Source: Pelagibacterales bacterium SAG-MED49
Lineage (GTDB): Bacteria; Pseudomonadota; Alphaproteobacteria; Pelagibacterales; Pelagibacteraceae
Assembly (NCBI GenBank): GCA_014653365.1
Contig: JACWEQ010000001.1
Span: 124,001-188,000, forward strand
Direction: 5' to 3'
Length of the DNA stretch: 64,000 nucleotides
This document shows, piece by piece, positions 34,908 to 61,453 of this stretch (its first letter is position 1; each line of letters opens with the position of its first letter). The notes beneath the pieces are model-generated. The model was given only the letters and a program-made list of their open reading frames with translations. It did not search any database and was not told the DNA's origin. The translations under genes were made by a program, and so were the position numbers.

Positions 34908-34917
34908 AAAGTTATCA

Positions 34918-36045: not shown

Positions 36046-36069
36046 TTAAATCTGGTTAACAAATAAAGA

Positions 36070-36099
36070 TTAAGGGGTCTTTTTAGACCCCTTTTTTTT
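36070..36099 (+). terminator. Intrinsic terminator between pstS and pstC
   Basis: Stem GGGGTCT / AGACCCC with loop TTTT followed by eight T's. It lies inside the pst operon, just as at aapJ/aapQ, and would let pstS be made in excess over pstCAB. Confidence 0.92.
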
Positions 36100-36132
36100 A
36101 AGAAGGTGTAAAATAAAACTTTAGGAGATTCT

Positions 36133-37518: not shown

Positions 37519-38779
37519 AAATAAAGAAAAACTGTTAGCAAAAAGATATTCCTCAGAAAAAAGATTTCAGTTTTTGGGTAAAAGTGCAATTTTTATGGCA
37601 CTTCTGTTTTTAGCATTTTTTATATTTAAAATTTTTTCAACCGGTTATACGGCTTTTCAAAAAACTTGGTTGATAGTACCTGTCAATTTTGATGTTGAAA
37701 CTATGTATTTAGATGCAAATCCGTCCAAAGAGGATTTGGAAGACGCTGATTATTTTGAAATATCACTCCAGTCAATGTTTAACTTAGATAAAAATGCAAA
37801 TGAGAAACAGCAAAATGAATTAAAAAAAATGGTTTCTTATTTCTTTGAAAGAGAAATTAAACAAGAATTGATTAACGATCCAAGTTTACTAGGTAAAACA
37901 AAAGAGATTTATTTAACTGCATCAGATGATTTAGATCAGGTATTCAAGGGAAATTATCCAAGAGATTTACCTGAAAAGCAAAGAAGAGTTACTGATTATC
38001 AACTAAAAATTTTTGATCAACTTGTAGAACAAGGAAAAGTTGAAAGTAAATTTAATTTAAGTTTCTTTACTTATCCAGACTCTCGTGAAGCTGAGTTAGC
38101 TGGTATTGCAAGTTCATTTATGGGTTCTATATTTTCAATTTTAGTTTGTTTAGCTATTGCTTTTCCAGTAGCTGTTTTAGCAGCAATATACTTAGAAGAG
38201 TTTGCCCCCAAAAATAGATTTACAGATTTTATTGAGGTAAATATTAATAATTTAGCAGCAGTACCATCCATTGTATTTGGTCTTTTAGGTTTGGGAATTT
38301 TATTAGCAGTATTTCAATTACCAAGATCAACACCTTTAGTTGGTGGAATAACCTTATCTTTGATGACTTTGCCAACGATTATTATTGCTTGTAGAGCGTC
38401 TTTAAAAGCAGTGCCACCAAGCATAAGAGAAGCAGCTCTAGCAATGGGAGCTAGCCGTATGCAAACTACAATGCATCATACAGTACCTTTGTCAATGCCA
38501 GGTACGCTGTCAGGAACTATTATTGGATTAGCTCAAGCATTGGGTGAAACAGCGCCATTAATTTTAATTGGTATGGTAGCTTTTGTAAACACTATCCCCG
38601 GCTCACCAATGGACCCTGCTGCAAGTTTGCCTGTTCAAATTTATATTTGGGCTGAAAGTGCTGAGAGAGGATTTGTTGAAAAAGTTTCAGCTTGTATAAT
38701 GGTTTTACTTGGTTTTTTAATAATTATGAATTTGTTCGCACAAATAATAAGACATAAATTTGAAAAAAAATGGAGTTAA
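37511..38779 (+). CDS. pstA: Phosphate ABC transporter permease PstA
   Basis: Second phosphate permease subunit. The 422-aa protein has an N-terminal membrane helix, a long charged loop (about residues 50-185), then the permease core with '[17 protein letters not shown]' and EAA loop '[20 protein letters not shown]'. The insert is typical of alphaproteobacterial PstA. pstB starts one base after its stop. Confidence 0.95.
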
Positions 38780-38780
38780 T

Positions 38781-39536
38781 ATGATAAAGATTAGTGCAAA
38801 AAATGTTGATGTTTTTTATGGAAAAAAACAAGCCTTGTTTAATATAAATTTAGACATTGAAGAAAATCAAGTAACAGCCTTAATTGGACCATCAGGATGT
38901 GGTAAATCTACTTTTTTAAGATGTTTAAATAGAATGAATGATGTAATCGATATATGTAAAGTTCAAGGAGAGATAGTTATAAATGATTTTAATATCAACG
39001 ATAAAGGGTGTGACGTAGTAAGGTTGCGAGAAAAAATTGGAATGGTTTTTCAAAAACCAAATCCATTTCCAAAAACATTATACGAAAATATTTCTTATGG
39101 TCCTTCAATACACGGAATGGCTCAATCAAAACAAGAAATGGATGAAATAGTTGAGATAAGTTTAAAAAAAGCTGCACTCTGGGAAGAAGTAAAAGATAGA
39201 CTTCATGAACCTGGAACAGGTTTGTCTGGTGGTCAACAACAAAGGCTATGTATAGCAAGAGCTATTTCAGTACAACCGGAGGTCATCTTAATGGACGAAC
39301 CTTGTTCTGCTTTAGATCCTATTGCTACAGCTCAAATAGAAGAGCTAATTGATGAATTAAAGAAAGAACATACAATTATTATTGTTACTCACTCTATGGC
39401 TCAAGCAGCAAGGGTCTCACAAAGAACAGGTTTTTTCCATTTAGGAGAATTGATAGAACATGGATTAACTGATAAAATATTTAAGAATCCAGATAATACA
39501 AAAACGCAAGATTATATTACAGGGAGGTTTGGCTAA
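38781..39536 (+). CDS. pstB: Phosphate ABC transporter ATPase PstB
   Basis: ATPase of the Pst system. From ATG 38781 ([14 protein letters not shown]), with GGAG just upstream, it is 251 aa; the track ATG at 38760 lies inside pstA. Motifs: Walker A '[13 protein letters not shown]', '[19 protein letters not shown]' (PstB-specific Q-loop region), signature '[14 protein letters not shown]', Walker B '[12 protein letters not shown]'. Its stop overlaps the phoU start. Confidence 0.96.
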
Positions 39537-40243
39537 TGTCGGAAGCACCACACACAGTAAAATCCTATGAGGAAGAACTTAAAAATTTAAATAGCAATAT
39601 TGTTAAGATGGGCGGCTTTTGTGAAGAAGCTTTAGTAAAAGCCACTCAAGCTATAATATCGAGAAATAGTGATAATGCTGAAACTGTTATTAAAAATGAC
39701 GAAAAAATTGATAAATTTGAAACTTTAGTTGAACAGCAGGTTGTAAACTTAATTGCCTTAAGACAACCAATGGCAATTGATCTTCGAGAGACCGTTACTG
39801 CATTAAAAATATCTTCTGATCTTGAACGAATAGGTGATTTAGCAAAAAATATTTCAAAAAGAACTCTTTTATTAAATGAAAATTTACCAAAAAATTTAAT
39901 TGATGCACTTGTTAGAGTTTCATCAAATGTTCAAAAACAACTCAAATCTATTTTAGATGCATATTTAGATAGGTCATCTGCTATGGCTGTAAATGTCTGG
40001 GAAGGTGATGAATATATAGATGATTTAACTAATTTATGTATGCAAGAGGTAATAAAATATTTGAAGGAAAATGAAAAAAATCTAGATGATGGTACTCATT
40101 TACTATTTGTTACTAAAAATATTGAACGTATAGGTGATCATACAACTAATATAGCAGAACAAATTTATTATTTAGTTACTGGTGAATATTTAGAAGGTGA
40201 TAGACCCAAGGGCACAGAGCCAGTAGTAACAGGAGAAAAATAA
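39536..40243 (+). CDS. phoU: Phosphate signalling complex protein PhoU
   Basis: Adaptor linking Pst transport to PhoR and repressing the Pho response when phosphate is ample. The 235-aa protein contains two PhoU three-helix repeats with metal-binding motifs 'ALKISSDLERIGDLAKNI' and 'FVTKNIERIGDHTTNIAE'. It follows pstB with a one-base overlap and precedes phoB by three bases. Confidence 0.96.
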   Translation: MSEAPHTVKSYEEELKNLNSNIVKMGGFCEEALVKATQAIISRNSDNAETVIKNDEKIDKFETLVEQQVVNLIALRQPMAIDLRETVTALKISSDLERIGDLAKNISKRTLLLNENLPKNLIDALVRVSSNVQKQLKSILDAYLDRSSAMAVNVWEGDEYIDDLTNLCMQEVIKYLKENEKNLDDGTHLLFVTKNIERIGDHTTNIAEQIYYLVTGEYLEGDRPKGTEPVVTGEK

Positions 40244-40246
40244 AAA

Positions 40247-40930
40247 ATGTCAGCTCATGTTTTTATAGCTGAAGATGAAACCTCTATAGTTACTCTTTTA
40301 AAATATAACTTAGAGAAAGAAGGTCATAAAGTTAGCTTCTGTGAAAATGGAGAGGAAGCTCTTAAACAAATTAAAGACAAGCAACCTGATTTGATTTTGA
40401 TGGACTGGATGCTTCCAGATTTGTCAGGTGTTGAAATATGTAAGAATTTAAAAAAAGATAAAAAATATAATGATATACCGGTAATAATGTTAACAGCAAA
40501 AGGTGAGGAAGAAGATAAATTAAAAGCATTTGATACAGGTGCAGATGATTACGTCACTAAACCATTTAGTCAAAAAGAACTCAATGCTAGAATAAAATCA
40601 TTGTTAAGAAGGTCAAAACCACAGGTATCTGTTGATGTTGTTGAATTTACTGACTTAAAAATTGATAGAATTACAAAACGTGTTTACAGAAAAAATACTG
40701 AAATTTCATTAGGACCTACTGAGTTTAAATTACTAGATTTTTTTATTAAAAATCCAAAAAGAGTTTATTCGCGGGAGCAGCTCCTGAATAATGTTTGGGG
40801 AGAAAATATTTATGTAGAGTCAAGAACTGTTGATGTTCATATACGAAGATTAAGGCAAGCAATCAATATTGAAAATACGAAGCCATTAATTAGAACAGTT
40901 AGGTCTGCAGGTTATTCTTTAGAATCTTGA
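40247..40930 (+). CDS. phoB: Phosphate regulon response regulator PhoB
   Basis: OmpR-family regulator that binds Pho boxes. The 227-aa protein has a receiver domain (acidic pair 'EDE', phosphoacceptor in 'LILMDWMLP', 'VTKPF') and a winged-helix output domain ('LGPTEFKLLDFFI', 'VDVHIRRLRQAI'). The presumed regulator of the Pho boxes in this window. Its 3' end overlaps the convergent sixA by 19 bases. Confidence 0.95.
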   Translation: MSAHVFIAEDETSIVTLLKYNLEKEGHKVSFCENGEEALKQIKDKQPDLILMDWMLPDLSGVEICKNLKKDKKYNDIPVIMLTAKGEEEDKLKAFDTGADDYVTKPFSQKELNARIKSLLRRSKPQVSVDVVEFTDLKIDRITKRVYRKNTEISLGPTEFKLLDFFIKNPKRVYSREQLLNNVWGENIYVESRTVDVHIRRLRQAINIENTKPLIRTVRSAGYSLES

Positions 40931-46450: not shown

Positions 46451-47245
46451 ATGAAAAATTCCAAAGTAGAAGCAATAGTATTTGATTTAGCTGGTACATT
46501 AATAGATTTTGGAAGCCTTGCACCATCTCAAGTTCTTATTGAATTATTTGATAGGTTTGGAATTAAAATTACCCGAAAACAAGCCATAGGACCAATGGGG
46601 ATCGAAAAACGATCCCATATAAAAGCATTACTAACAACAAAAATAATTAATTTACAGTGGAAAAAAAAATTTAAATCAAAACCTACAGATAAAGATATTG
46701 ATAAATTGTTTAAACTTTTTAATCCAGAATTAAAAAAAATAATTAAGAAACATTCAAAATTTATATCAGGAAGCAAAAATACTATAGATTTTATAAAAAA
46801 TAAAAAAATAAAAATAGGAATCAATACTGGATATTCAGAAGAAATTCTAAACGTTATATTGTCAGAATTAAAAAAACAAAGATTTATACCCGATGTGTCA
46901 TATAGTTCTTCATACACAAAAATTGGAAGACCTTCTGCAGAGATAATTTATAGGATCTTTTCTGATTTAAATATAACCAAGGGATCAAATTGTATTAAAG
47001 TTGATGATACTATTCCTGGACTACAGGAGGGATTAAATGCTGGAATGTGGGTAATAGGAGTAATATTTTCTGGAAATGAATTTGGTAAAAATGAAAATGA
47101 ATTTAATAAATTAACCAACAAAGAAAAATTAAAATTTAGAAAAAAAATCTCTTACAAGTTTAAGAAAATGGGTGCACATTACGTAATTGATACAATTAAG
47201 GATTTACCGAAAATAATTGATCAAATTGAAAATAAAATTATTTAG
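46451..47245 (+). CDS. phnX: Phosphonoacetaldehyde hydrolase (phosphonatase)
   Basis: HAD-superfamily enzyme that cleaves the C-P bond of phosphonoacetaldehyde to acetaldehyde and phosphate. The 264-aa protein keeps the family hallmarks: nucleophile Asp12 in 'FDLAGTLIDFGSLAP', Schiff-base Lys53 in 'GPMGIEKRSHI' (same position as the B. cereus enzyme), 'GRPSAEIIYR' and the C-terminal 'KVDDTIPGLQEGLNAGMW'. Its usual partner, 2-aminoethylphosphonate transaminase PhnW, is not in the window. A Pho box precedes it. The 3' end overlaps the convergent aquaporin gene by 8 bases. Confidence 0.93.
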   Translation: MKNSKVEAIVFDLAGTLIDFGSLAPSQVLIELFDRFGIKITRKQAIGPMGIEKRSHIKALLTTKIINLQWKKKFKSKPTDKDIDKLFKLFNPELKKIIKKHSKFISGSKNTIDFIKNKKIKIGINTGYSEEILNVILSELKKQRFIPDVSYSSSYTKIGRPSAEIIYRIFSDLNITKGSNCIKVDDTIPGLQEGLNAGMWVIGVIFSGNEFGKNENEFNKLTNKEKLKFRKKISYKFKKMGAHYVIDTIKDLPKIIDQIENKII

Positions 47246-47897
47246 TAAATAGCATTTTTTTTATTACAAATATTGCTAATAGTGCTCCTAATAACTCTGC
47301 AATTATAAAGAAAGGTGTATTTAAATAATTTATTCCAGTGAATGTATCTGTAAAAGTTCTAGCTATTGCAACAGCAGGATTTGCAAAAGAAGTTGATGAA
47401 GTGAACCAATATCCAGCTGTAATATAAAAACCAACACATGCAGCGGTTACAACTTTTCCACTTTTCATTGCTCCAAATATAATTAAAATTAATCCAAAAG
47501 TTGCGACTATTTCTGCAACAAATATATAAACTCCATCCCTTGTTTTAGATGACAACTCATAAATAGGTAGTTCAAAAAAAAAATTAGCCAAGCCTACACC
47601 GGCTAGACAACCAAATATTTGTGATAAGATATATATATGAATTAATTTTGATTTTAATCTTCCAGTAAAATACATACTTAGTGTAACAAATGGATTGAAG
47701 TGAGCTCCAGATATATCAGAAAAAACCGTAATAAGTACAAATAGACCTGCACCAGTAGCTATAGTGTTTGCTAATAGCATGACGGCTACGTCATTTGTAA
47801 GATTTTGTGCCATAATACCAGATCCAACAACTATCATTACCAGGAAGCAACTACCTATAAATTCACTGTAAATTATTTTTTTTTTGCTATTTTTCAT
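47238..47897 (-). CDS. aqpS: Aquaporin/MIP-family channel, AqpS-like
   Basis: Major intrinsic protein channel. From ATG 47897 (MKNSKKKIIYSEF) it is 219 aa with six predicted membrane helices and the two pore half-helices 'GAHFNPFVTLS' and 'SFANPAVAIAR'; the first NPA is changed to NPF. Directly downstream of and overlapping arsC, it matches the AqpS-ArsC arrangement of rhizobia, in which arsenate is reduced and arsenite leaves through the channel. An unspecific glycerol or water channel is the alternative. Confidence 0.88.
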   Translation of the reverse strand: MKNSKKKIIYSEFIGSCFLVMIVVGSGIMAQNLTNDVAVMLLANTIATGAGLFVLITVFSDISGAHFNPFVTLSMYFTGRLKSKLIHIYILSQIFGCLAGVGLANFFFELPIYELSSKTRDGVYIFVAEIVATFGLILIIFGAMKSGKVVTAACVGFYITAGYWFTSSTSFANPAVAIARTFTDTFTGINYLNTPFFIIAELLGALLAIFVIKKMLFTK

Positions 47898-48342
47898 AAT
47901 TTTTGATCCAATCATTAATTCTTGTTTCTAAATTGGAGTAAGTTTTATGTATTTCTATCGAAATTAATTCCTCTTTATTAGGTTTATCACTATTTTCTAA
48001 ATCATTAATAACATAAACGGGATCCTCAATGTCCCAATGAACTATTTTTTCAGGAGATGGCCAGACTGGACAAACTTCATCACTAGCATTGTTGCATACA
48101 GTAAATACCTGGTCAAATATTGTTTTTTCATCCAAAAATTTATTAAAGTTTTTAGAAGATAGATTTTTTGTATCAAAATTATTTTCATTTAGATATTTAA
48201 TGACATATTTATTAATTATTCCAGATGGTTTGCTACCCGCACTGTAACCAATAAATTTATCTTTATGATATTTATTAACTACACTTTCAGCCAATATGCT
48301 TCTATGAGAATTGCCAGTACAAACAAATAAAAGTTTTTTCAT
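47887..48342 (-). CDS. arsC: Arsenate reductase ArsC, LMW-phosphatase (thioredoxin) type
   Basis: Reduces arsenate to arsenite. The 151-aa protein has the P-loop 'CTGNSHRS' (Cys8, Arg14) and the redox pair Cys83 and Cys91 in 'VCNNASDEVCPV', matching the three-cysteine relay of thioredoxin-coupled ArsC. It forms an operon with the aquaporin. In a cell that induces Pst under phosphate limitation, arsenate enters as a phosphate mimic, so placement in the Pho island makes sense. Confidence 0.92.
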   Translation of the reverse strand: MKKLLFVCTGNSHRSILAESVVNKYHKDKFIGYSAGSKPSGIINKYVIKYLNENNFDTKNLSSKNFNKFLDEKTIFDQVFTVCNNASDEVCPVWPSPEKIVHWDIEDPVYVINDLENSDKPNKEELISIEIHKTYSNLETRINDWIKNYEK

Positions 48343-48400: not shown

Positions 48401-48429
48401 TTGTAATAAAACTGAAACATTGTTAATTT
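48401..48429 (+). promoter_or_regulatory. Pho box upstream of the PhnZ-like gene
   Basis: Units TTGTAATAAAA, CTGAAACATTG, TTAATTT. The 18-mer TTGTAATAAAACTGAAAC matches 14 of 18 Pho-box positions by my count. It ends only about 12-22 bases before the ATG at 48441, so the transcript would be almost leaderless, or the site may act by another geometry. Confidence 0.65.
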
Positions 48430-48440
48430 AAAAGAGTAAA

Positions 48441-48992
48441 ATGGACATTAAATCAAATATTGTCAATTTATTTAAAATTATAGAGGAAATTGGATCAAAC
48501 AAACAATATGGAAATGAAAAAGTTTCACAACTAGAACATGCAATTCAATGTGCATTGTTGGCAAAAAAAAACAATGAAAACCATTTTTTCATTACTGCAG
48601 CTCTATTCCATGATATTGGTCACTTAATTAATAATGACAAAGAAGCCATAAAAAAAGGAATAGATAAAAAGCATGAAAATTCAGGATCTTTTTTTCTTTC
48701 TAGATTTTTTCCAGAAGATGTTACAAGATTAATTAAAGGACATGTGCCAGCTAAAAGATATTTAGTTTATTATGAAAAAGGTTACTATGAAACTTTATCT
48801 ATTGCCTCAAAAAAAAGTTTAGATGTCCAAGGGGGAAGTTTTTCTACAGATGAAGCAAATGATTTTATCAAACAACCTTTTATGAAAGATGCAGTCAGGT
48901 TAAGAAAATATGATGATCTTGCTAAAGTTGAAAATTTAGAAATTCCAAATATAAATTTTTTTTATAAATATGTAGAAAGCAGCTTTAAATAA
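48441..48992 (+). CDS. phnZ: PhnZ-like HD-domain oxygenase (phosphonate C-P bond cleavage)
   Basis: Resembles PhnZ, the mixed-valence di-iron HD oxygenase that cleaves 1-hydroxy-2-aminoethylphosphonate to glycine and phosphate. In the 183-aa sequence I see His33 in 'VSQLEHAIQCALLAKK', His57-Asp58 in 'FHDIGH', 'KGHVPAKRYLV' (His101) and an Asp pair near 158. Tyr23 and Glu26 have the spacing of the PhnZ iron-capping Tyr and substrate-binding Glu. The dioxygenase partner PhnY is not in the window. TmpB or other PhnZ relatives with different phosphonate substrates are alternatives. A Pho box precedes it. Confidence 0.82.
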   Translation: MDIKSNIVNLFKIIEEIGSNKQYGNEKVSQLEHAIQCALLAKKNNENHFFITAALFHDIGHLINNDKEAIKKGIDKKHENSGSFFLSRFFPEDVTRLIKGHVPAKRYLVYYEKGYYETLSIASKKSLDVQGGSFSTDEANDFIKQPFMKDAVRLRKYDDLAKVENLEIPNINFFYKYVESSFK

Positions 48993-50157
48993 ACTTTTTT
49001 TTGTTTAGAAAAATAGCTGTTATGTTCCCAATAATTGCTAAAATAAAAAATAACAAAATAAGCAAATCGTATCCTCCGATAATCCATATTAATGAGCCAA
49101 TCCAGGGGCCTAAAATACTACCAATCATATATTGCAAAGCTAAAATACCATGAACATTACCAAAGTTTTTTTGACCAAAAACATCATTTTGAACTAAAGG
49201 TTTTAAAATCGCCATACTTCCATATGCTGAGCTATTAAATAAAACAAACAAAAATGCTAAATAATGATTAATATTTATAAAGTATAAAAATATCATTCCA
49301 ACTACCATCGAGTAAAAACAAATAACAAATAATTTTAGATTTGATTTATTTCCTCCAAATATCATTACCAAAATTCTTCCAATTACTTGACCAGGTCCAA
49401 ACATTGATGCGGTCAGTACAGCTAGTGACAGACTCATTCCTTTTTCCTGTAACATTGGAATTACATGAGTTGTAATAGCACCAATATTAAATCCAATAAT
49501 AAACAATGAAAAACTAAATAACCAAAACCTATAGTCTTTAAGTATTATTTTAAGCTTTGAATTTTGATTGTTTTGTTTTTCAATATTTTTAAATTCTTTT
49601 CGAATTATATTTTTAAAACCAAAATAATTAGCTGGTGAACTAATCAGTATATTTATTATTCCAAAAATAAATACAGTAAACCTCCAGTCATATTGTTCTG
49701 TTAAATAAGTTGCAGTAGGAAATGTATATGTGCTTGCAAATCCCGCAAACAAAGTAATAATTGCAATAGATGTCTTAGCCTTTGATTTTAAATTAATAGT
49801 AATGACGCTAAAAAGTATCGTGTAAAGACAACCACCAGAGGTTGCACTAACAAGTATCCAAGCAACTAAAAATCCACCATATGTATCTACTAATGAAAGA
49901 TAAATTACACTTAGTCCTAACAGTATAGGGCTGGCCCACATCATTGGAAAACTTAGATTTCTATCTACAATCTTACCTAGAAAAGGTAAAAGTAAACTAT
50001 GCACAACTAAGCCTAGAGAATAAATAAAAGTTAAGTTGCTTCTTGAAATACCAAGTTCATTTTCCCAAGTTAACAATAGTGCTGAAAATAAGTACATGCA
50101 GCTGCTGTAACAAAAGGTAACCGATATACCTATTAAAAATGCAGGTAAATATTTCAT
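48985..50157 (-). CDS. Major facilitator superfamily transporter
   Basis: A 390-aa protein with about twelve membrane helices and MFS features: the cytoplasmic loop after helix 2 reads 'LGKIVDRNLSF' and the equivalent in the second half 'IGRILVMIFGG'; a charged central loop ('IIRKEFKNIEKQNNQN') separates the halves. It resembles monocarboxylate/oxalate-formate type MFS permeases. The cargo is unknown; position suggests phosphonate products, organophosphates or arsenicals. Its 3' end overlaps phnZ by 8 bases. Confidence 0.85.
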   Translation of the reverse strand: MKYLPAFLIGISVTFCYSSCMYLFSALLLTWENELGISRSNLTFIYSLGLVVHSLLLPFLGKIVDRNLSFPMMWASPILLGLSVIYLSLVDTYGGFLVAWILVSATSGGCLYTILFSVITINLKSKAKTSIAIITLFAGFASTYTFPTATYLTEQYDWRFTVFIFGIINILISSPANYFGFKNIIRKEFKNIEKQNNQNSKLKIILKDYRFWLFSFSLFIIGFNIGAITTHVIPMLQEKGMSLSLAVLTASMFGPGQVIGRILVMIFGGNKSNLKLFVICFYSMVVGMIFLYFININHYLAFLFVLFNSSAYGSMAILKPLVQNDVFGQKNFGNVHGILALQYMIGSILGPWIGSLIWIIGGYDLLILLFFILAIIGNITAIFLNKKKFI

Positions 50158-50707: not shown

Positions 50708-52108
50708 TTACCTTACAATTAATTGATCTGATCCAATTAATATTCTTCTAAGCCAAGCAGATAATCTATCCATAAATATTACAACTGCTAAAACTAATAT
50801 TGCCATGTAGGCAACATTTTCAAAATCATTTCCAGTACCTAGTGCACCTAAAAATTGCAACCCAATTCCTCCAGCACCCATTGCTCCAATAATTACAGCA
50901 CCTCTAGTATTTGACTCTAAATAGTATAAGGATTGTGATACAAAAATAGGAAGTATTTGAGGAATTATACCAAATCTATGTTGTAGAAATTTACTAGCCC
51001 CCGTTGATTGAACTCCTTCTTGTTGTTTCTTCTCGGTATTTTCAATTGCTTCAGAATACAATTTACCTAAAGTACCTGTATCGGTAAAACCAATTGCAAA
51101 AATTCCAGTAAAGGGTCCTGGACCAAAGGCTCTTAAAAATATTAAACTCCAAATTAAAAAATCTATTCCTCTTAAAGTGTCAAATAATCTCCTCAACGTA
51201 AATCTTAGAGCTTTAATGGGTGTAACGTTGTACGCCGCAAGAAAGGATAGGGGTAGAGCCATCACTGTAGCAAACATTGTTCCTAGCACAGCCATAACTA
51301 TGGTTTCGAGCATTGCCCACCAAACTCTACCGTGCATGAATGCTTCATTGTCTTTAATTTCTGTAAAGAAAAGTTTTAAATTAGACATTTCAGGAACAAC
51401 TCTTTCTTTAGAAAAAGTCAAACCTAATGCTTCGAAAAAGCTATATGGTTCTAACGGACTTGAGAAATCAAACCAAAAATATTTCCATCCGATACTGTAA
51501 CGATGAATTTCAACTTTTCTTGGATATACTTGAATTCTCTCATACAAAGTTGGTCTAAATTCAACCCTGTTTTCTGTAATTCTAAAACCCTTTAAATCGT
51601 CTTCAGCTAAATCTTCTGAACCAACAAGGTAAGGTTTACCATTAGTATTTAATTTTATAGTAAAATCTCTTTCATATTTAGGAAAATTTACAATCTCTAC
51701 TCTATCTTTGTATAATATTGCTTTACCTTTATTATTAAATTCAACTACATTGCCAACATTATCAGAATTTTTGTAAAACCAATCTGGAATTGATTTATCT
51801 AGATTGTCTCTTCCATAAACACTTCTATAGTTACCTTCAAAAGCTATCTTAATATCATCATGATTTTCCCATTTCATTGTTACATGATCTTTGTGCGCAT
51901 ATGTATCTAAAGCAAACATAGCGGCATTTTGTGGTTTCCATTTTTTTGGAATATCAACAACGTCTAGAGTAAAAAAACCTACTATTAAATATAACATAAT
52001 AAGAAAAAAAATTATTTGGCCTTTTAATCTACTCTTCCTGGCCTGTTTAAATGTATCAGGAAATAATTTTCGAATATTATCTCTTTCAATTGCTAAACTA
52101 GAACTCAT
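50708..52108 (-). CDS. phnE2: Phosphonate ABC transporter permease, PhnE2 type with extended N-terminus
   Basis: Membrane subunit of the phosphonate importer. The 466-aa protein is far longer than a typical 260-290-aa PhnE. After a first membrane helix (about 30-50) a soluble, probably periplasmic region of roughly 200 residues precedes the permease core ('ETIVMAVLGTMFATVMALP'), with the PhnE signatures 'DTLRGIDFLIWSLIFLRAFG', 'GTLGKLYSEAIEN' and 'GAMGAGGIG'. Its start overlaps the phnE1 stop. Long second PhnE subunits occur in alphaproteobacteria. Confidence 0.92.
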   Translation of the reverse strand: MSSSLAIERDNIRKLFPDTFKQARKSRLKGQIIFFLIMLYLIVGFFTLDVVDIPKKWKPQNAAMFALDTYAHKDHVTMKWENHDDIKIAFEGNYRSVYGRDNLDKSIPDWFYKNSDNVGNVVEFNNKGKAILYKDRVEIVNFPKYERDFTIKLNTNGKPYLVGSEDLAEDDLKGFRITENRVEFRPTLYERIQVYPRKVEIHRYSIGWKYFWFDFSSPLEPYSFFEALGLTFSKERVVPEMSNLKLFFTEIKDNEAFMHGRVWWAMLETIVMAVLGTMFATVMALPLSFLAAYNVTPIKALRFTLRRLFDTLRGIDFLIWSLIFLRAFGPGPFTGIFAIGFTDTGTLGKLYSEAIENTEKKQQEGVQSTGASKFLQHRFGIIPQILPIFVSQSLYYLESNTRGAVIIGAMGAGGIGLQFLGALGTGNDFENVAYMAILVLAVVIFMDRLSAWLRRILIGSDQLIVR

Positions 52109-52959
52109 TGATTTACCCCAATTAATTTATGTCTCCAATATGCAGACAAATAATCTAATGCAATTATTGTACCAACCAGTAAGAACATACAAGCCAAAAC
52201 ATCAGCTCCATAATTCCACTGAATTAAAGCTGCTAACATTTCTCCAATTCCTCCTGCACCAACAAAACCTAATATAGTAGATTCTCTGACATTTATTTCT
52301 AACCTCAATATTCCATAACTTAGAAAAAGAGGGAGCACTTGTGGAAGAACTGAGAATCTTATCTTTTGTGTCCAAGTTGCACCAACAGAACTTAAACCTT
52401 CAATAGGTTTTCCATCACAATTTTCTATAGCTTCCGTGAATAATTTACCAAGTGCTCCTGCAGTATGTATTGTTATGGCAATCACTGCTGGTAAAGATGA
52501 TTTACCCATTAAATATAAAAACACCATTGCTATTATTAATGTTGGAAATGATCTTGTCACATCCATAAAAAATTTTGTAAATTGAATAACCCTTTTATTT
52601 CTTATTAAATTTCTACTTGAGAAGATTGCAAAAATAACTGCCAAAACAAATCCGATCGAAGTTGAAAATAATGCAATATTTAAAGTTATAATTAATTCAG
52701 GAATGTACTTAATAACTCTTGGCCAATATTTCCATCCCATCTCAAATGTATCAACAAATAAATCTCTTGGATAATTAAAAAAATTAGCTATACCTCTACC
52801 AAAAGATCCTGCATTTGCCTCTAACGATACCAGGGTGCCACCAAAAAAAACTAATATTAGAATTGCAATTCCCAGTAACGAGGACCTAGTTCTTTGATTT
52901 GTTAATTTTTTTAAATTAACTTCAATTTGTTCTAAGTTTGCAGGTAATGCTTTTGACAT
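52105..52959 (-). CDS. phnE: Phosphonate ABC transporter permease PhnE1
   Basis: First phosphonate permease subunit. I choose ATG 52959 (MSKALPANLEQ), giving 284 aa, because the track start lies inside the terminator that follows phnD. Core features: 'TLNIALFSTSIGFVLAVIFAI', 'MDVTRSFPTLIIAMVFLYL', 'GALGKLFTEAIENCD' and 'GFVGAGGIGEML'. It overlaps phnE2 by four bases. Confidence 0.94.
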   Translation of the reverse strand: MSKALPANLEQIEVNLKKLTNQRTRSSLLGIAILILVFFGGTLVSLEANAGSFGRGIANFFNYPRDLFVDTFEMGWKYWPRVIKYIPELIITLNIALFSTSIGFVLAVIFAIFSSRNLIRNKRVIQFTKFFMDVTRSFPTLIIAMVFLYLMGKSSLPAVIAITIHTAGALGKLFTEAIENCDGKPIEGLSSVGATWTQKIRFSVLPQVLPLFLSYGILRLEINVRESTILGFVGAGGIGEMLAALIQWNYGADVLACMFLLVGTIIALDYLSAYWRHKLIGVNQ

Positions 52960-52965
52960 AATTTT

Positions 52966-53004
52966 AAAAAAAAACAGAGGCAAAGATTTTAAGTCTTTGC
53001 CTCT
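52966..53004 (-). terminator. Intrinsic terminator between phnD and phnE1
   Basis: On the minus strand an 11-bp perfect stem, AGAGGCAAAGA / TCTTTGCCTCT, with a 7-base loop, is followed by nine T's after one G. It is placed exactly between binding-protein and permease genes, ending a few bases before the phnE1 ATG: the third case of this layout in the window. Confidence 0.92.
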
Positions 53005-53021
53005 AATTTATAGGGGTTTAA

Positions 53022-53972
53022 TTAATTATTCTTTTGTGCTTCAATTTTAGCTTTTCTTGCTGCTACAACTGATTCATAGAAAGAGTGATCTACAGCTACC
53101 CATTTTTTTACAATCCCGTTTGCAACGTTTTCACTACATTTTGGATCGTTTTCGTGTATCCATTTTTTCAATCCAATCATTACTTGATGTGCTCTAACAG
53201 GTAAAAAAGTAGGCATTACAATTGGACCATTAGGAATTAATTTTGAAGACCAAATTTGAACAATGTCGTCCATATTTAAAATCCCTTTATCAACCATTTT
53301 TCTTAAATTCCCTGATGAATATCCTTCTTCCCAGCTACCAACGCCAGACACCCATGTTACAGCAGCATCAACGTCACCATTCATTAATGCTAATACATTG
53401 TTTTCATGTCCTCCAGAAAACTGTGTTTTTGAAAAATATGTATCTGGATCCATACCCATAGCTTTTAATTCAATTGATGGAATTAAAAAACCTGATGTAG
53501 AGTTAGGGTCAGCCCAACCAAATGATTTACCTTTAAGATCTGCCATTGATTTAATTCCAGATGCTTTAGTTGCTACTGCTACTGAGTAATAACCCATGTC
53601 TCCAGTTGGTTGCATTCTTGTTAATACTGGCACTACAGCAGTTGGATCTTTAAGATACATACCTGCATATCCAGAAGAACCAAACCATGTATAATCTAGA
53701 TTTCCACCTAGCATCGACTCCATTGTTCCAGCATAGTCTTTAAATGTAAAAAATTTAGCTGGTACACCATAAGCTGCTTCGATATATGGCATGAAACAAT
53801 CATTTCTAGCGATAATATCTTGAGCTGCTTCGTCACCTAAAAAACCAACTCTAAATTCCGGTTGGTATTTACTTAAGTCCATTTTTGGACCTGTGTAAGT
53901 TACTGCATTAGCCTGAGTTGCAAACAATATCATAGCCAAAAGTGCAATAACTCTTGTTAGTTTATTAAACAT
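53022..53972 (-). CDS. phnD: Phosphonate ABC transporter, periplasmic binding protein PhnD
   Basis: Captures alkylphosphonates in the periplasm. The 316-aa precursor has a signal peptide (about 1-23, 'ALLAMILFATQANA') and PhnD-type motifs 'AGTMESMLGGNLDYTWFGSSGY', 'FGWADPNSTSGFLIPS' and 'GDVDAAVTWVSG'. A strong AAGGAG ribosome site precedes it and a terminator follows. The ligand (methylphosphonate, AEP or other) cannot be read from this; SAR11 with this system use methylphosphonate. Confidence 0.95.
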   Translation of the reverse strand: MFNKLTRVIALLAMILFATQANAVTYTGPKMDLSKYQPEFRVGFLGDEAAQDIIARNDCFMPYIEAAYGVPAKFFTFKDYAGTMESMLGGNLDYTWFGSSGYAGMYLKDPTAVVPVLTRMQPTGDMGYYSVAVATKASGIKSMADLKGKSFGWADPNSTSGFLIPSIELKAMGMDPDTYFSKTQFSGGHENNVLALMNGDVDAAVTWVSGVGSWEEGYSSGNLRKMVDKGILNMDDIVQIWSSKLIPNGPIVMPTFLPVRAHQVMIGLKKWIHENDPKCSENVANGIVKKWVAVDHSFYESVVAARKAKIEAQKNN

Positions 53973-54032
53973 AATTATCTCCTTTTTTTATTTCTAGTCT
54001 AACGACTTATTTGTACCGATGAGTTATTGACC

Positions 54033-54857
54033 TCATGCAGTTGCAAATTCTTTTTTCAACATCCCTTTTAAATTATTTTTTGTTTTAAGCTCAGTTGATG
54101 TTACTTGTGGCTCAAAAGCTTCATCTGCTTCTGCTCCATAAATTTCTCTTGCAAGTTTATCTGACAATTTTTCTGGTAAATCATCAAAGACAATTGCACC
54201 ATCTTTCATACCAATAATTCTGTCACAGTAAGTTTTTGCTGTATCTAGAGTATGAAGATTTGAAATGACGGTTAAATTTTTTTCATCATGAATTTTTCTT
54301 AATGACTCCATAACCATCCTAGCATTCATTGGGTCTAAAGATGCTATAGGTTCATCTGCTAAAATCATTTTAGGATTTTGCATTAATGCTCTGCATATAG
54401 CCACACGTTGCTGTTGACCTCCAGATAATGTTTCTGCTCTTTGAAGAGCAGTGTTAGCCATACCTAAGTTGTTAAGTAAAATCAAAGCATCAGCTCTTTC
54501 ATCACGAGAAAATATTTTTAAAGATGCCCTAAATGAACCTTGATAATTTAATCTACCTAAAATGACATTTGTTAATACATCAAGTCTTGGCACTAAGTTA
54601 AATTGTTGAAAAATCATTGCACAATTTCTCTGCCAAGATCTTTTTTCTTTGCTTTTAAGTTCTAATATATTTTGACCATCGACTTCTATTTTTCCATCTG
54701 TTGCATCTGTTAGTCTATTAATGATTCTTAGAAGAGTAGATTTACCTGCACCTGATCTTCCAATAATTCCTATCATTTGAGGTTTATTGACCTTAAATGA
54801 GATATTTTTTACGGCATGGTTATTGCCAAAATATTTATTTACATTATTTATGAGCAT
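54033..54857 (-). CDS. phnC: Phosphonate ABC transporter ATPase PhnC
   Basis: ATPase of the phosphonate importer, first gene of the minus-strand phnCDE1E2 operon. The 274-aa protein shows Walker A '[17 protein letters not shown]', Q-loop '[19 protein letters not shown]' (typical PhnC), signature '[15 protein letters not shown]' and Walker B '[14 protein letters not shown]'. No clear ribosome site precedes the ATG. Confidence 0.94.
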
Positions 54858-54975: not shown

Positions 54976-55686
54976 CTAAACTTTAACAAGTATCTGAATT
55001 TTAGACCCATCAAAATAACTTTCACTTAGCTCTATTGGGGTTTTATTAAAGTCAACATTAATAGATGTCGTTTTTATTAAAGGTTTTCCAACATCAATAT
55101 TTAAAAGATTTGATTTTATTTTGTCTGAAATTTCAGCGCTTATTAACGTTTTAGATCTTATTATTTTTTTAACATTTAATAAATTAAAGGCTTTAGTTAC
55201 AGACTGTTTTTTAACAAAATGATTAATAAATTTTGGAAATCTATCATGGGGTATTGATCTAAATGTTATTACAGAAGGAGAATTATTTATATATCCTATA
55301 CTATTTATTCTAGTGACTTTTTCTTTTTTATTTAAATTCAATTCTTTTTTCTCAAATAGATTACATTCTGCAATATCAAAACTTTTGATTTCAATTCGCA
55401 CTGATTTGTTCTCTTCAAGAATATTTTCAGTAAAACGAACATTTTTGCTTATTGAATAATTAATTTTTGATGTTTTTACAAAAACACCCAAACCTCTTTT
55501 TGAATATATTAAATTATCATTTTTAAGTTCTTTAAAAGCTCTTCTTATAGTGTGTCTATTAACATTGAACTGTTTTGCATACTCACCCTCGGAATCTAAT
55601 TTTTTATTAATTTTGTACTTATTTAAAACAATTTCTCTTTTAATTGAATTGTATATTTCTTTCCAAAGCAAATCCTTTGATGTCAT
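54976..55686 (-). CDS. phnF: GntR/HutC-family regulator, PhnF-like
   Basis: A 236-aa transcription factor with an N-terminal GntR winged helix ('LDSEGEYAKQFNVNRHTIRRAFKEL') and a UTRA ligand-binding domain. PhnF proteins next to phosphonate genes typically repress them and respond to phosphate or phosphonate compounds. Divergent from phnG and upstream of phnC, it is well placed to control both. The ligand is unknown. Confidence 0.87.
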   Translation of the reverse strand: MTSKDLLWKEIYNSIKREIVLNKYKINKKLDSEGEYAKQFNVNRHTIRRAFKELKNDNLIYSKRGLGVFVKTSKINYSISKNVRFTENILEENKSVRIEIKSFDIAECNLFEKKELNLNKKEKVTRINSIGYINNSPSVITFRSIPHDRFPKFINHFVKKQSVTKAFNLLNVKKIIRSKTLISAEISDKIKSNLLNIDVGKPLIKTTSINVDFNKTPIELSESYFDGSKIQILVKV

Positions 55687-55732: not shown

Positions 55733-55748
55733 TTGTCTAGTTGTATAG
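55733..55748. promoter_or_regulatory. Possible PhnF operator in the phnF-phnG gap
   Basis: Tandem 8-base repeats TTGTCTAG and TTGTATAG directly before the phnG ATG. HutC-type GntR regulators often bind sequences built on TTGTNTAnACAA-like halves, so this is the best operator candidate in the gap. Assignment is inference. Confidence 0.35.
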
Positions 55749-55752
55749 TATT

Positions 55753-56196
55753 ATGTTAAATGAATCAAGAAAACAATGGTTAAGTTATTTAGCAACTGCT
55801 GATGAAGATTATCTCATTTTGCTTTGGGATAATTTAAATATGAAAATAAAATATAATTGGTTAAGAGAACCTGAGATTGGTAGTGTAATGGTTCAAGGAA
55901 AAGCAGGAGCCACAGGTGATAATTTTAATGTTGGAGAGGTAACTATAACTAGATGTTCAGTTAATTTAGATAAAAAAATTCAAGGTCATGGTTATGTTCA
56001 AGGTAGAAATAAATATAAATCTAAAATTGCAGCTTTGTGTGATGCGTTAATGCAAACTGAAAAAAAAGAAATTATAAAAAAGAATATACTGGATAAATTA
56101 GTTAAATACAAAAATAATAAAAGAAACGAAATATTATCTAAAACAGAAGCTACTAAAGTTGATTTTTTTACCTTGGTAAGAGGTGAGGATAAATAA
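55753..56196 (+). CDS. phnG: C-P lyase core subunit PhnG
   Basis: Subunit of the PhnGHIJ complex, which with PhnI links phosphonate to ribose 5-triphosphate. From the ATG at 55753 it is 147 aa; the track counts an upstream TTG. The family motif 'REPEIGSVMVQGKAGATGDNFNVGE' is clear (split over residues 32-58). No ribosome site is visible, so translation may be leaderless. First gene of phnGHIJKLN. Confidence 0.94.
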   Translation: MLNESRKQWLSYLATADEDYLILLWDNLNMKIKYNWLREPEIGSVMVQGKAGATGDNFNVGEVTITRCSVNLDKKIQGHGYVQGRNKYKSKIAALCDALMQTEKKEIIKKNILDKLVKYKNNKRNEILSKTEATKVDFFTLVRGEDK

Positions 56197-56199
56197 TTT

Positions 56200-56754
56200 A
56201 TGGAAGTTGTTTTTAAAAAAAATAATTCTCAAACGAGTGCTGATTATTTTAGAAGTATTTTGTTTGCAACCTCATATCCTGGTTCAATTGAGACGTTAAA
56301 TAATACAGATCCCCCTTCAAATATGTTTTCAGCTAGTTGTTCAATTATAAAAACTTTTTGTGATAGTTATTCAAATATTTTTTTAGGTGGTGATGTTAAC
56401 AATCCAGAAACCATAGAATGGATTAAATTTAATACAGGTGCAAACATAACTGATAAAAAAAATGCAAATTTTGCAATTGGTTTTTGGAATGATCTCATTC
56501 CATTTGAAGATTTTAAAATTGGTGACGAGCAAAATCCTGATCAATCCTGCACTATAATTTGTCAGTCTCAATTTAAAAAACCAAATGCCAAAATTACTGG
56601 TCCTGGTATTAAAAGTTCTAAAAGTATATTTTTACCCGATAAAGAGATTATAAAAAAAAATAACCAGCAATTTCCTTTAGGGCTTGATTTTTATTTTGTT
56701 GATGATGAAAAATTTTATTCAATACCAAGGTCATTAAAAATAGGAGAGCTATAA
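56200..56754 (+). CDS. phnH: C-P lyase core subunit PhnH
   Basis: Structural subunit of the C-P lyase core complex. The 184-aa protein begins with 'TSADYFRSILFATSYPGSI', corresponding to the conserved 'FR..L.AMs.PG' of PhnH, and ends 'LGLDFYFVDDEKFYSIPRSLKI', typical of the family ('G.D..l'). It lies three bases after phnG and one before phnI. Confidence 0.92.
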   Translation: MEVVFKKNNSQTSADYFRSILFATSYPGSIETLNNTDPPSNMFSASCSIIKTFCDSYSNIFLGGDVNNPETIEWIKFNTGANITDKKNANFAIGFWNDLIPFEDFKIGDEQNPDQSCTIICQSQFKKPNAKITGPGIKSSKSIFLPDKEIIKKNNQQFPLGLDFYFVDDEKFYSIPRSLKIGEL

Positions 56755-56755
56755 A

Positions 56756-57835
56756 ATGTATGTATCAGTAAAAGGAGGAGAAAAGGCAATAAATAACGCA
56801 CATTCCTGGTTATCTGAAATAAGAAGAGGTGATGTAAATATAGCAGAATTAAATATTAAACAAATTAGTGAACAACTAACATTAAGTGTCGACAGAGTTA
56901 TGTCTGAGGGATCTTTGTATGATAAAGACTTGTCGGCTTTAGCAATCAAACAGTCTAGAGGTGACTTGATTGAAGCAATTTTTTTAATTAGAGCCTATAG
57001 AACTACTTTACCTAGAATTGGTTCTAGCAAACCTATCGAAACTGGCAAAATGTTATGTCTTAGAAGAATATCTGCAACATTTAAAGATATACCAGGTAAA
57101 CAAAAATTAGGTCCAACATTTGATTACACACACCGATTACTTGACTTTAAACTTCTTGCTGATGGTGAGTATGATAAAGCTAAGATTGAAAAATATGATG
57201 ACAAAGAAATCCCTCATGTTTTAAGCTTTTTAAATAAAGAAGGATTAATTCAGAAAGAAATACCTAGTGGCAAAACATCTAAAGATATTACAAGAAATCC
57301 AATTAATTTTCCTTTAACAAGATCTGAACGACTGCAATCTCTTTCGAGAGGAGATGAAGGTTTTCTTCTTGGTTTAGCTTATTCAACACAGAGAGGGTAT
57401 GCTAGAAACCATGCATTTGTTGGTGAATTAAGAACTGGTTATGTTGAAGTTAAATTTGAAATTCCTGAACTAGGGATAGAAATAAATATTGCTGATGTCA
57501 TGTTTACTGAGTGTGAGTCAGTAAACCAATTTAAAGGTAGTAAAAAAATACCTGCTCAATTTACCCGTGGATATGGATTAGTTTTTGGTCAATTAGAGAG
57601 AAAAGCAATTTCTATGGCTTTGGTTGATAGATCAATGAGATGGAAAGAGTTTGGAGAGGAATATTTAGGCGTTGCTGCTCAAGATGAAGAATTTATTATA
57701 TCTCATTGTGATAATATTCAAGCTACTGGTTTTTTAGAACATATCAAATTACCTCATTATGTAGATTTTCAGGCGGAATTGGATCTAGTAAGAAAAATTA
57801 GAGAAGAATATAAAAAAAATGAACAACATACTTAA
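56756..57835 (+). CDS. phnI: C-P lyase core subunit PhnI
   Basis: Nucleosidase-like subunit that replaces the adenine of ATP with phosphonate (with PhnGHL). The 359-aa protein has family hallmarks 'YVSVKGGEKAINNAHSWL', 'LSLSRGDEGFLLGLAYSTQRGY'-type sequence (residues about 195-218) and 'AQDEEFIISHCDNIQATGF'. Full length; overlaps phnJ by 17 bases. Confidence 0.96.
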   Translation: MYVSVKGGEKAINNAHSWLSEIRRGDVNIAELNIKQISEQLTLSVDRVMSEGSLYDKDLSALAIKQSRGDLIEAIFLIRAYRTTLPRIGSSKPIETGKMLCLRRISATFKDIPGKQKLGPTFDYTHRLLDFKLLADGEYDKAKIEKYDDKEIPHVLSFLNKEGLIQKEIPSGKTSKDITRNPINFPLTRSERLQSLSRGDEGFLLGLAYSTQRGYARNHAFVGELRTGYVEVKFEIPELGIEINIADVMFTECESVNQFKGSKKIPAQFTRGYGLVFGQLERKAISMALVDRSMRWKEFGEEYLGVAAQDEEFIISHCDNIQATGFLEHIKLPHYVDFQAELDLVRKIREEYKKNEQHT

Positions 57836-58700
57836 ATTTAAAAATAAAAAAGCTAAAGTTTCAGATCAAGATGAAATTTATAATTTTGCTTATTTAGATG
57901 AAAATACAAAAAGAATGATAAGAAGAGCTTTAATCAAAGCTCTTTGTATACCAGGTTATCAAGTCCCATTTTCATCCAGAGAAATGCCAATGCCCTACGG
58001 ATGGGGTACAGGCGGTGTGCAAGTAACTTCATCTTGTTTAACAACAGACGATGTCCTTAAAGTTATTGATCAGGGAGCAGATGACACTACTAATGCAGTT
58101 TCAATAAGAAATTTTTTTAAAAAAACTGCAAATATTGAGACTACTGAAACAACTGAAGATGCTTCAATAATACAAACAAGACATAGAATACCAGAGAATC
58201 AATTAAAGGAAAAACAGATACTTGTTTATCAAGTTCCAATTCCAGAGCCACTAGCTTTTTTAGAACCAAGATATCAAGAGACTAAAAAAATGCATGCACT
58301 ATCAGAATATGGAATTATGCATGTAAAGTTATATGAAGACATTACTAAAAATGGTCATATAGAAACCGCATATGCGTATCCAGTGAAAACAAATGACAGA
58401 TACATAATGGATCCATCACCTATACCAAAATTTGATAATCCAAAGATGAATAACAATCCTGCTATACAATTGTTTGGTGCCGGTAGAGAACAAAGAATTT
58501 ACGCAATTCCACCGTACACACAGGTTACAAGTCTTGATTTTGAAGATTATCCATTTGATCCTTCAAAAGCACCACATAAATGTTCTATTTGTGGATCAAA
58601 TGATAGTTTTTTAGATGAAATAATTACAGACGATGATGGTAATAGATCTTTCATATGTTCAGATACAAATTACTGTAATCAAAGAATGAAAGATAAGTAA
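57819..58700 (+). CDS. phnJ: Carbon-phosphorus lyase PhnJ
   Basis: Radical-SAM enzyme that cleaves the C-P bond of 5-phosphoribosyl 1-phosphonate, releasing for example methane from methylphosphonate. The 293-aa protein keeps the glycine-rich 'PMPYGWGTGGVQVT' region (radical Gly) and the four C-terminal cysteines, 'CSIC' then 'ICSDTNYC', that hold the cluster and the thiyl radical. All key residues are intact, so the pathway is probably active. Confidence 0.97.
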   Translation: MNNILKFKNKKAKVSDQDEIYNFAYLDENTKRMIRRALIKALCIPGYQVPFSSREMPMPYGWGTGGVQVTSSCLTTDDVLKVIDQGADDTTNAVSIRNFFKKTANIETTETTEDASIIQTRHRIPENQLKEKQILVYQVPIPEPLAFLEPRYQETKKMHALSEYGIMHVKLYEDITKNGHIETAYAYPVKTNDRYIMDPSPIPKFDNPKMNNNPAIQLFGAGREQRIYAIPPYTQVTSLDFEDYPFDPSKAPHKCSICGSNDSFLDEIITDDDGNRSFICSDTNYCNQRMKDK

Positions 58701-59468
58701 ATGGAACCAATTTTATCTGTTCAAAATTTAAATAAATATTATGGGGATCAAGTTGGTTGTAAAAATATGAATATGACATTGTATCCGGGTGAAGTCGTTG
58801 GAGTGGTAGGGGAGTCTGGGTCAGGAAAAACAACTTTTATAAACTCAATATCAGGAAATCTTATTCCAGATAGTGGAAAAATCCTAATTAATACAAATAA
58901 TGAAATTATTAATTTCTTAGAAATATCAGAGTCATTGAAAAGATTATTAATAAGAACCGAACTAGCTTTTGTTCACCAAAATCCTAGAGATGGTTTAAGA
59001 TTGGATGTAAGTGCTGGTGGAAATATTAGTGAAAGATTAATGTCCATTGGACAAAGAAATTATGGAAATATTAGGCAAACTATTTTTAAATGGTTAGATA
59101 AAGTGGAAATCGATAAAAGTAGGGTAGATGATTTTCCAAGAACATTTTCAGGTGGAATGTTGCAAAGATTACAAATAGCAAAAAACTTAGTTACGAGTCC
59201 AAAAATAATTTTCATGGATGAACCAACAGGAGGTCTTGATGTTTCTGTTCAAGCCAAAATTTTAGATTTGTTAAGAAAATTAGTTAGAGAATTAAATTTA
59301 TCAGTTGTAATTGTTTCTCACGATCTTGCAGTTATTAGATTGTTAGCTGATAAAATTATTGTAATGAAAAATGGTGAGGCTGTTGAGTCTGGATTGTGTG
59401 ATCAAGTATTAGATGATCCACAACATTCTTACACTCAGTTATTAGTCAGCTCAGTACTTCAGGTTTAA
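58701..59468 (+). CDS. phnK: C-P lyase ABC-type ATPase PhnK
   Basis: Soluble ABC protein that docks on the PhnGHIJ core. The 255-aa protein has Walker A 'GESGSGKTTFINS', Q-loop 'FVHQNPRDGLRLDVSAGGNI' (PhnK-typical), signature 'FSGGMLQRLQIAKNL' and Walker B 'IIFMDEPTGGLDVS'. It starts directly after the phnJ stop. Confidence 0.95.
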   Translation: MEPILSVQNLNKYYGDQVGCKNMNMTLYPGEVVGVVGESGSGKTTFINSISGNLIPDSGKILINTNNEIINFLEISESLKRLLIRTELAFVHQNPRDGLRLDVSAGGNISERLMSIGQRNYGNIRQTIFKWLDKVEIDKSRVDDFPRTFSGGMLQRLQIAKNLVTSPKIIFMDEPTGGLDVSVQAKILDLLRKLVRELNLSVVIVSHDLAVIRLLADKIIVMKNGEAVESGLCDQVLDDPQHSYTQLLVSSVLQV

Positions 59469-59469
59469 A

Positions 59470-60147
59470 ATGATAGAACTTAATAAAATAACAAAAAAAT
59501 TTACACTTCATAATCAAGGCAAAACAAAAATATCAGTTTTTAAAAATTTGAATTTGAAAATAAATCCTGGAGAAATTGTAGCGTTGACAGGACCATCAGG
59601 TGTTGGAAAGTCTAGCATTTTAAAAATGATTTATGGAAACTATGTTTTTCAATCAGGAGAAATTAAAATTAATAATCACAACATAGATCATAAATATCCT
59701 AGAAATATTATTGAACTTAGAAAAAATACAATAGGATATGTTAGTCAATTTCTAAGAGTGATACCTCGTGTTCCTACGATTGAAATTGTTATGGAGCCCT
59801 TATTAGAAATAAATTCAGATCAAGATGAAGTTCGTGAAAAAGCTGAAAAAATTTTAATAAAACTTAATATAGATAAAAACTTATGGAATTTATCGCCACT
59901 TACTTTTTCAGGAGGAGAACAACAAAGAGTTAATGTAGCTAAGGGACTGATTAGGAATTATCCATGTTTATTACTAGATGAACCAACAGCTAGTTTAGAT
60001 AGTGTTAACAAAGATATTGTTTTGAATTTGATTAATGAAAAAAAAGATAAAGGATCTTCAATAATTGGCATTTTTCATGATAAATATTCACGTAAATATT
60101 TAAATGCTAGGGAAATAGATATTACAAAAATATCAAATGCAAAATAA
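59470..60147 (+). CDS. phnL: C-P lyase ABC-type ATPase PhnL
   Basis: Second ABC protein of the C-P lyase, required with PhnGHI for the nucleosidase step. The 225-aa protein has Walker A 'GPSGVGKSSILKMIYGNY', 'IGYVSQFLRVIPRVPT', signature 'FSGGEQQRVNVAKGL' and Walker B 'LLLDEPTASLDS'. It lacks the oligopeptide-type tail of PhnK. Overlaps phnN by 11 bases. Confidence 0.95.
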   Translation: MIELNKITKKFTLHNQGKTKISVFKNLNLKINPGEIVALTGPSGVGKSSILKMIYGNYVFQSGEIKINNHNIDHKYPRNIIELRKNTIGYVSQFLRVIPRVPTIEIVMEPLLEINSDQDEVREKAEKILIKLNIDKNLWNLSPLTFSGGEQQRVNVAKGLIRNYPCLLLDEPTASLDSVNKDIVLNLINEKKDKGSSIIGIFHDKYSRKYLNAREIDITKISNAK

Positions 60148-60673
60148 CGGTCAGCTTATTGTAGTCGTTGGACCATCAGGATCAGGAAAAGATACATTGT
60201 TAAAAAAAGTAATTAAAAAAATTCCTAATTCTATTTTGGTTAAGAGATACATTACTAGGAAAAAAGATATTAAAAATGAAGATCATTACAGTATATCGAT
60301 TAAAAATTTTGAAGATAAGATTTCAAAAAAACATTTCTTCGTTTACTGGAATGCTCATGGTTTTTCATACGGTATTCCATTTAAAGAAATAAAAAAAATA
60401 GAGCAAGGTAAAACAGTAATTTTTAATGGATCAAGAAAAGTACTTTTTAAAGTAAAAAAAAAAGTTAATAACGTTAAAATAATTAATATTACTGCCCCAT
60501 CAACAATTATTAAAAAGAGACTTGTAATTCGAGCTAGAGAAGACAAAAAATCAATTAATAAAAGGATAAAAAGAAAAATTAATTTACTTCCGAAAAATAT
60601 AATTACTATAAATAATAATAAATCAATATCTATCGGTGCAAATAAATTAAAAAAAATAATTTTAGCTAAGTGA
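60137..60673 (+). CDS. phnN: Ribose 1,5-bisphosphokinase PhnN
   Basis: Makes PRPP from ribose 1,5-bisphosphate, the last step of C-P lyase product recycling. The 178-aa guanylate-kinase-like protein begins 'LIVVVGPSGSGKDTLL' (Walker A) and carries 'RYITRK' and 'FFVYWNAHGFSYGIP', typical of PhnN. Last gene of phnGHIJKLN; its end overlaps the convergent DUF1045 gene by 12 bases. Confidence 0.92.
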   Translation: MQNNGQLIVVVGPSGSGKDTLLKKVIKKIPNSILVKRYITRKKDIKNEDHYSISIKNFEDKISKKHFFVYWNAHGFSYGIPFKEIKKIEQGKTVIFNGSRKVLFKVKKKVNNVKIINITAPSTIIKKRLVIRAREDKKSINKRIKRKINLLPKNIITINNNKSISIGANKLKKIILAK

Positions 60674-61375: not shown

Positions 61376-61424
61376 AATTCAACTTTTAATACTTATATAA
61401 ATTTTTTTCTCAAATTTAAAATAT

Positions 61425-61442: not shown

Positions 61443-61453
61443 ATAAAAAAACG

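Follow-up and report, generated by a model that had tools for sequence, protein, structure and literature searches.

An unpaired PhnZ-type diiron oxygenase gene behind a Pho box in the phosphonate island of SAR11 bacteria

The window analysed here, a 64,000-nucleotide stretch of contig JACWEQ010000001.1 from Pelagibacterales bacterium SAG-MED49, carries a gene for a PhnZ-type HD-domain diiron oxygenase (TIGR03276/PhnHD class) at 48441..48992 on the forward strand. The gene encodes 183 amino acids, stands behind a conserved Pho box and belongs to a set of seven SAR11 genomes (group A) in which no PhnY* hydroxylase was found. The protein is probably a mixed-valent diiron oxygenase, induced by phosphate (Pi) starvation, that cleaves imported alpha-hydroxyphosphonates. 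Of these, (R)-1-hydroxy-2-aminoethylphosphonate (R-HAEP) would be the likeliest substrate, with hydroxymethylphosphonate (HMP) second. A missing PhnY is common in the family, and TIGR03276/PhnZ genes that stand without a partner next to phnWX, phnWAY or PhnX operons are already in print (PMC8154272, PMC11203657), so the finding adds a member to a known type.

Ocean surveys count PhnZ genes as evidence of 2-AEP oxidation. If an unpaired PhnZ acts alone on ready-made hydroxyphosphonates, part of these counts measures something else. If HMP is the substrate, the enzyme would open a formate-yielding route beside C-P lyase, which makes methane from methylphosphonate.

Sequence, metal ligands and fold

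By sequence and by fold, the only close solved relatives of the SAR11 protein in the PDB are PhnZ (4mlm; sequence E = 1.8e-27) and TmpB (6npa; E = 1.1e-25). NCBIfam ranks TIGR03276 first, at 201.1 bits under a curated cut-off of 214.6, followed by hydroxymethylphosphonate dioxygenase PhnZ1 (NF052439; 154 bits) and TmpB (NF049941; 139 bits), both short of cut-offs of 300. A fragment of authentic PhnZ (residues 12-183) also stays under the TIGR03276 cut-off, with 188 bits, and such a failure therefore does not exclude PhnZ function. The Pfam match is to the general HD domain only.

The six diiron ligands are complete (H33, H57, D58, H78, H101 and D158, equivalent to PhnZ H34, H58, D59, H80, H104 and D161), so that the retention of the PhnZ metal set claimed in an earlier note on this DNA holds, with both iron sites intact. 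The YxxE loop is kept as Y23-G-N-E26, corresponding to PhnZ Y24/E27. This substrate loop is a mark of HD mixed-valent diiron oxygenases; the PhnZ substrate is an alpha-hydroxyphosphonate, and the Tyr quits Fe2 upon substrate binding, opening the site to O2 (PMC8177086). Conservation of the eight positions, ligands plus Tyr/Glu, is 93-100% in the family sample (Tyr 99%, Glu 93%). The pair had been read as a sensor of the substrate amine: it is present, but at 93-99% conservation family-wide it is no proof of an amine substrate, and for the same reason Glu26 cannot choose between R-HAEP and HMP. Lys105, Ser123, Gln130 and Arg155 are conserved as well, matching PhnZ K108, S126, Q133 and R158.

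An AlphaFold model that used 59 homologs (pLDDT 93.8; a single-sequence run at pLDDT 35 was discarded) superimposes on R-HAEP-bound PhnZ (4mln) with a TM of 0.91 and on TmpB with about 0.87. A fold search returned PhnZ and TmpB at E about 1e-11, whereas HD hydrolases trailed at E 0.06 or worse (TM 0.51 or less) and MIOX is far from the model (TM 0.49). The earlier assignment to a PhnZ-like oxygenase rather than a hydrolase is thereby upheld. Identity to the R-HAEP dioxygenase PhnZ of bacterium HF130_AEPn_1 is 35%; the two share fold, ligands, the Tyr/Glu pair and the four further residues, but the SAR11 protein has no PhnY* partner. TmpB of Leisingera caerulea also shares fold, ligands and YxxE loop, yet it belongs to another clade, and the SAR11 gene has no adjacent TmpA. 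GmPhnZ1 of Gimesia maris, a hydroxymethylphosphonate dioxygenase, is of the same enzyme class and provides the second-best family model, although the SAR11 score is far under the cut-off and GmPhnZ is paired with GmPhnY (PMC10574752). The dN/dS between gene copies is about 0.07-0.15, which places the HD gene under purifying selection.

Island context and Pho boxes

The HD gene lies in a neighbourhood of phosphonate catabolism, with phnX on one side and a C-P lyase island on the other. Upstream on the forward strand are phoR, pstS and then pstCAB-phoU-phoB (33055..40930; phoR and pstS by domain scans, the rest by sequence) and phnX, encoding phosphonoacetaldehyde hydrolase (46451..47245; TIGR01422, 276 bits, cut-off 220). 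Domain scans identify an aquaporin of the MIP family (47238..47915) and, as divergent neighbour, an ArsC-like arsenate reductase of the LMWPc type (47887..48342), both on the reverse strand; a SAR11 arsenic module including such a pair has been described (PMC6426599). An MFS transporter gene (48985..50157, reverse; ArsK-like, 128 bits, cut-off 400) converges on the HD gene with an 8 bp overlap and is a possible importer of its substrate or exporter of its product. Farther on lie a phosphonate ABC transporter with two phnE-like permeases, phnD and phnC (50708..54857, reverse; by sequence and position), a phnF-like GntR regulator (54976..55686, reverse; TIGR02325, 147 bits, cut-off 156.8) and the C-P lyase genes phnGHIJKL (55741..60147, forward; PhnJ by PF06007, the others by order). 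The stretch 60137..62590 holds phnN (forward), a TIGR03223 phosphonate-operon protein (reverse) and phnM (forward). Beside C-P lyase and PhnX, the HD protein would naturally supply the third C-P cleavage chemistry that had been suggested for this island. The P island differs between strains, since in G286 (L035, 1664-8188) and G166 (L036) a ugp-like ABC transporter with a GDPD-like gene, as read from the sequence, is inserted between phnX and aquaporin, an interval shared by a 239-aa protein.

Pho boxes were scored over 20 positions against a consensus of the E. coli type. The box of the HD gene, TTGTAATAAAACTGAAACAT (48401-48420, forward), lies in the arsC/HD divergent intergenic region, 20 bp from the start codon, and scores 16/20. 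Six sites of at least 16/20 occur in the window, against about 1.0 expected from first-order Markov sequences. All six are shortly upstream of gene starts, mostly of P-island genes (phnX, phnG, phoR, pstS), and one falls within a divergent neighbour ORF. A 17/20 box precedes phnX (46306-46325), another stands before the C-P lyase genes at phnG (55680-55699), and the phoR/pstS region has boxes at 32977 and 34929. The Pho box proposed earlier for the HD gene is confirmed as a conserved site: it is kept at 15-16/20 in 7/7 genomes carrying the gene, where no longer run of conserved sequence lies between arsC and the HD gene. Upstream of 19 other SAR11 homologs examined, the best match is 13/20. 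This site suggests that PhoB would induce the HD gene under Pi starvation.

Two of the Pho-box-like sites also touch other genes. One (32977-32996) lies between phoR and OlsB-like ornithine-lipid genes; the other (29503-29522) precedes a pair at 29586-31426 that reads as a phosphoesterase and a glycosyltransferase. Both gene sets would be fitting for lipid renovation under Pi stress.

Distribution in the SAR11 family

HD homologs are present in 37 of 297 family genomes, where they form two distinct sets. The set to which the window's gene belongs, group A, comprises seven genomes with 85-100% identity. One of them, G035, is a closed chromosome (99% complete), and the window's genome is 89% complete; a 96%-identical copy of the gene resides in a closed chromosome. 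In group A the HD gene is always flanked by the ArsC-like/aquaporin pair on one side and by the MFS gene on the other; the MFS gene itself occurs in exactly the same 7/297 genomes. The HD gene is co-inherited with C-P lyase: PhnJ is found in six of the 297 genomes, all group A, and in the seventh, G166, where PhnJ was not found, the contig ends inside the MFS gene. PhnX exceeds its cut-off in 6/7 group A genomes and in one genome outside; phnX is present in G286 and G166, and none turned up in G288, whose HD contig was followed only over the locus stretch. Phage carriage of the HD gene was rejected, as the viral contigs searched contained no relative.

Search for a partner hydroxylase

That no PhnY accompanies the gene, as first noticed, is true near it and throughout the seven group A genomes. 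The suggestion of a distant PhnY fared worse: all seven, the closed one included, are without a PhnY*-type protein and at least two are without a TmpA-type hydroxylase. Distant PhnY* and TmpA candidates were sought by PhyH and TauD searches, NCBIfam scans and a PhnY* model in the seven genomes, and none reached cut-off. The PhnY* model was made from three PhyH proteins encoded next to HD genes of other bacteria and, by construction, scores 403-483 bits in the genomes that supplied them. In each of the seven SAR11 genomes its best score is about 29-45 bits, and four sister-clade genomes, one Pelagibius and one Burkholderiales genome reach at most 77 bits. PhyH/TauD proteins sampled from the seven genomes, with part of the TauD hits taken, include none at the NCBIfam PhnY or TmpA cut-offs, and all three PhyH hits of the closed G035 are under them. 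A TmpA/BBOX-type protein is absent from G140 (96% complete) and G262 (91%), both of which bear the HD gene, so the gene does not depend on a TmpA partner. The worry about a hidden PhnY is largely answered by these genomes; a hydroxylase from another family could supply the substrate.

PhnX (46451-47245) is likewise an orphan in group A. PhnW and the TIGR03364 FAD oxidase were considered as its feeders and rejected, neither being found over cut-off in the seven genomes. The best PhnW-like match in G000 resembles, on reading its sequence, a serine-glyoxylate aminotransferase.

Phylogeny and relatives

A tree of 105 rows pairs group A with a clade of marine Alphaproteobacteria as its sister (support 98/82) and sets it apart from the TmpB clade, in which the members from beyond SAR11 adjoin TmpA-type genes. 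PhnZ itself has a weak position (87/71) on a long branch. Throughout the sister clade the HD gene stands beside phnW (6/6 rows, with phnA too in two) and no hydroxylase is nearby, which points to aminophosphonates. Because group A has no PhnW, this link carries over incompletely.

Across phyla, the neighbourhoods of relatives consist of phosphonate genes. No PhyH/TauD ORF occurs in the fetched stretch for 14/14 of the named phnW-linked relatives, 8/8 of the FAD-oxidase-linked and 13/16 of the C-P-lyase-linked ones; the flanks span at most 8 kb, so partners in those organisms may lie farther away. Paired relatives are also present (seven TauD/BBOX-type, six PhyH-type), and the unpaired state is the commoner one in the family sample. 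In the literature, PhnHD (TIGR03276) adjoins phosphonatase operons without PhnY*, and its function has been termed a conundrum (PMC11203657). phnZ homologs have been reported in 15 of 1186 phnWX and 24 of 75 phnWAY clusters; pbfA was absent from all of these, which suggests interchangeable roles on R-HAEP (PMC8154272).

With the TIGR03276/PhnHD genes beside phosphonatase or C-P lyase operons, the SAR11 gene shares the top family model, five invariant histidines, phosphonate-gene neighbours and the absence of a hydroxylase (PMC11203657, PMC8154272). It differs in its streamlined host, its arsenic-module and MFS neighbours, the lack of PhnW and a score below cut-off. From the two-step PhnY*Z pathway it is set apart by the missing PhnY*.

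Proposed function and alternatives

Phosphate scarcity would, through PhoB, induce the HD gene, and an alpha-hydroxyphosphonate would be imported ready-made via PhnCDE and/or the adjacent MFS transporter. A Fe2/Fe3 mixed-valent diiron site would oxidatively cleave the C-P bond and release phosphate, together with glycine from R-HAEP or formate from HMP. The predicted enzyme would work without PhnY* or TmpA because its substrate enters already hydroxylated. R-HAEP is placed before HMP on the literature, namely the phnZ clusters that never contain pbfA, the range of GmPhnZ, which accepts both compounds (PMC10574752), and growth of Prochlorococcus MIT9301 on HMP (PMC6581173). Among the points that weigh against this explanation, the Pho box, so close to the ATG, leaves little leader, and records of R-HAEP in nature are sparse (PMC8154272, PMC12366243). 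C-P lyase could process the same substrates, leaving the predicted enzyme partly redundant.

Alternatively, the enzyme might carry out the second step of a two-step pathway, with the hydroxylase (TmpA-like, PhyH or TauD) encoded elsewhere in the genome. G000 indeed has a protein with TmpA as its best NCBIfam model (341 bits, cut-off 400), as well as several TauD/PhyH proteins with no assigned role. The failure of every scanned protein to reach the PhnY or TmpA cut-off, the seven genomes without a PhnY*-like protein, the persistence of the HD gene in G140 and G262 and its place outside the TmpB clade make such a pathway unlikely. The phosphonate neighbourhoods of relatives, the two-metal ligand set with its YxxE loop and the wide gap in the fold search speak against an ordinary HD phosphohydrolase with a phosphate ester or nucleotide as substrate; for all that the general Pfam match would suit one, we regard it as very improbable.

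Slightly less probable than the two-step pathway is a substrate outside the known set, be it another alpha-hydroxyphosphonate or an organoarsenical that has been hydroxylated. PhnZ chemistry requires an alpha-hydroxyl, which methylarsonates do not have; the sister homologs adjoin phnW rather than arsenic genes, and the island is mostly phosphorus-related. Yet the HD gene adjoins the arsenic module, and HTCC7211 is able to demethylate DMA, with the responsible enzyme awaiting identification (PMC6426599). The co-distributed MFS transporter could import a distinct compound, and closely related enzymes vary in substrate (PMC10574752). We give similarly low odds to group A being a partner-free PhnZ branch with a substrate beyond R-HAEP, HMP and hydroxy-TMAEP, imported by the MFS transporter from a ready-made pool on which SAR11 truly draws for phosphorus. 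Cleavage of imported R-HAEP, or else HMP, is the explanation that we favour.

Other HD proteins of SAR11

The remaining 30 SAR11 homologs have 37-47% identity and belong to the TmpB side of the tree. This second lineage (L040-L069) adjoins TmpA/BBOX-like or carnitine/betaine-type genes, and many of its loci appear to hold a GMC oxidoreductase, a TauD-like gene, a carnitine-type dehydrogenase, a BKACE-like gene and a thioesterase; the lineage may take part in the metabolism of quaternary amines or TMAEP. A second HD protein in G000 (contig 37; L004, 1195-1752), downstream of a PurF-like gene, bears a weak resemblance to TIGR03276 (38 bits).
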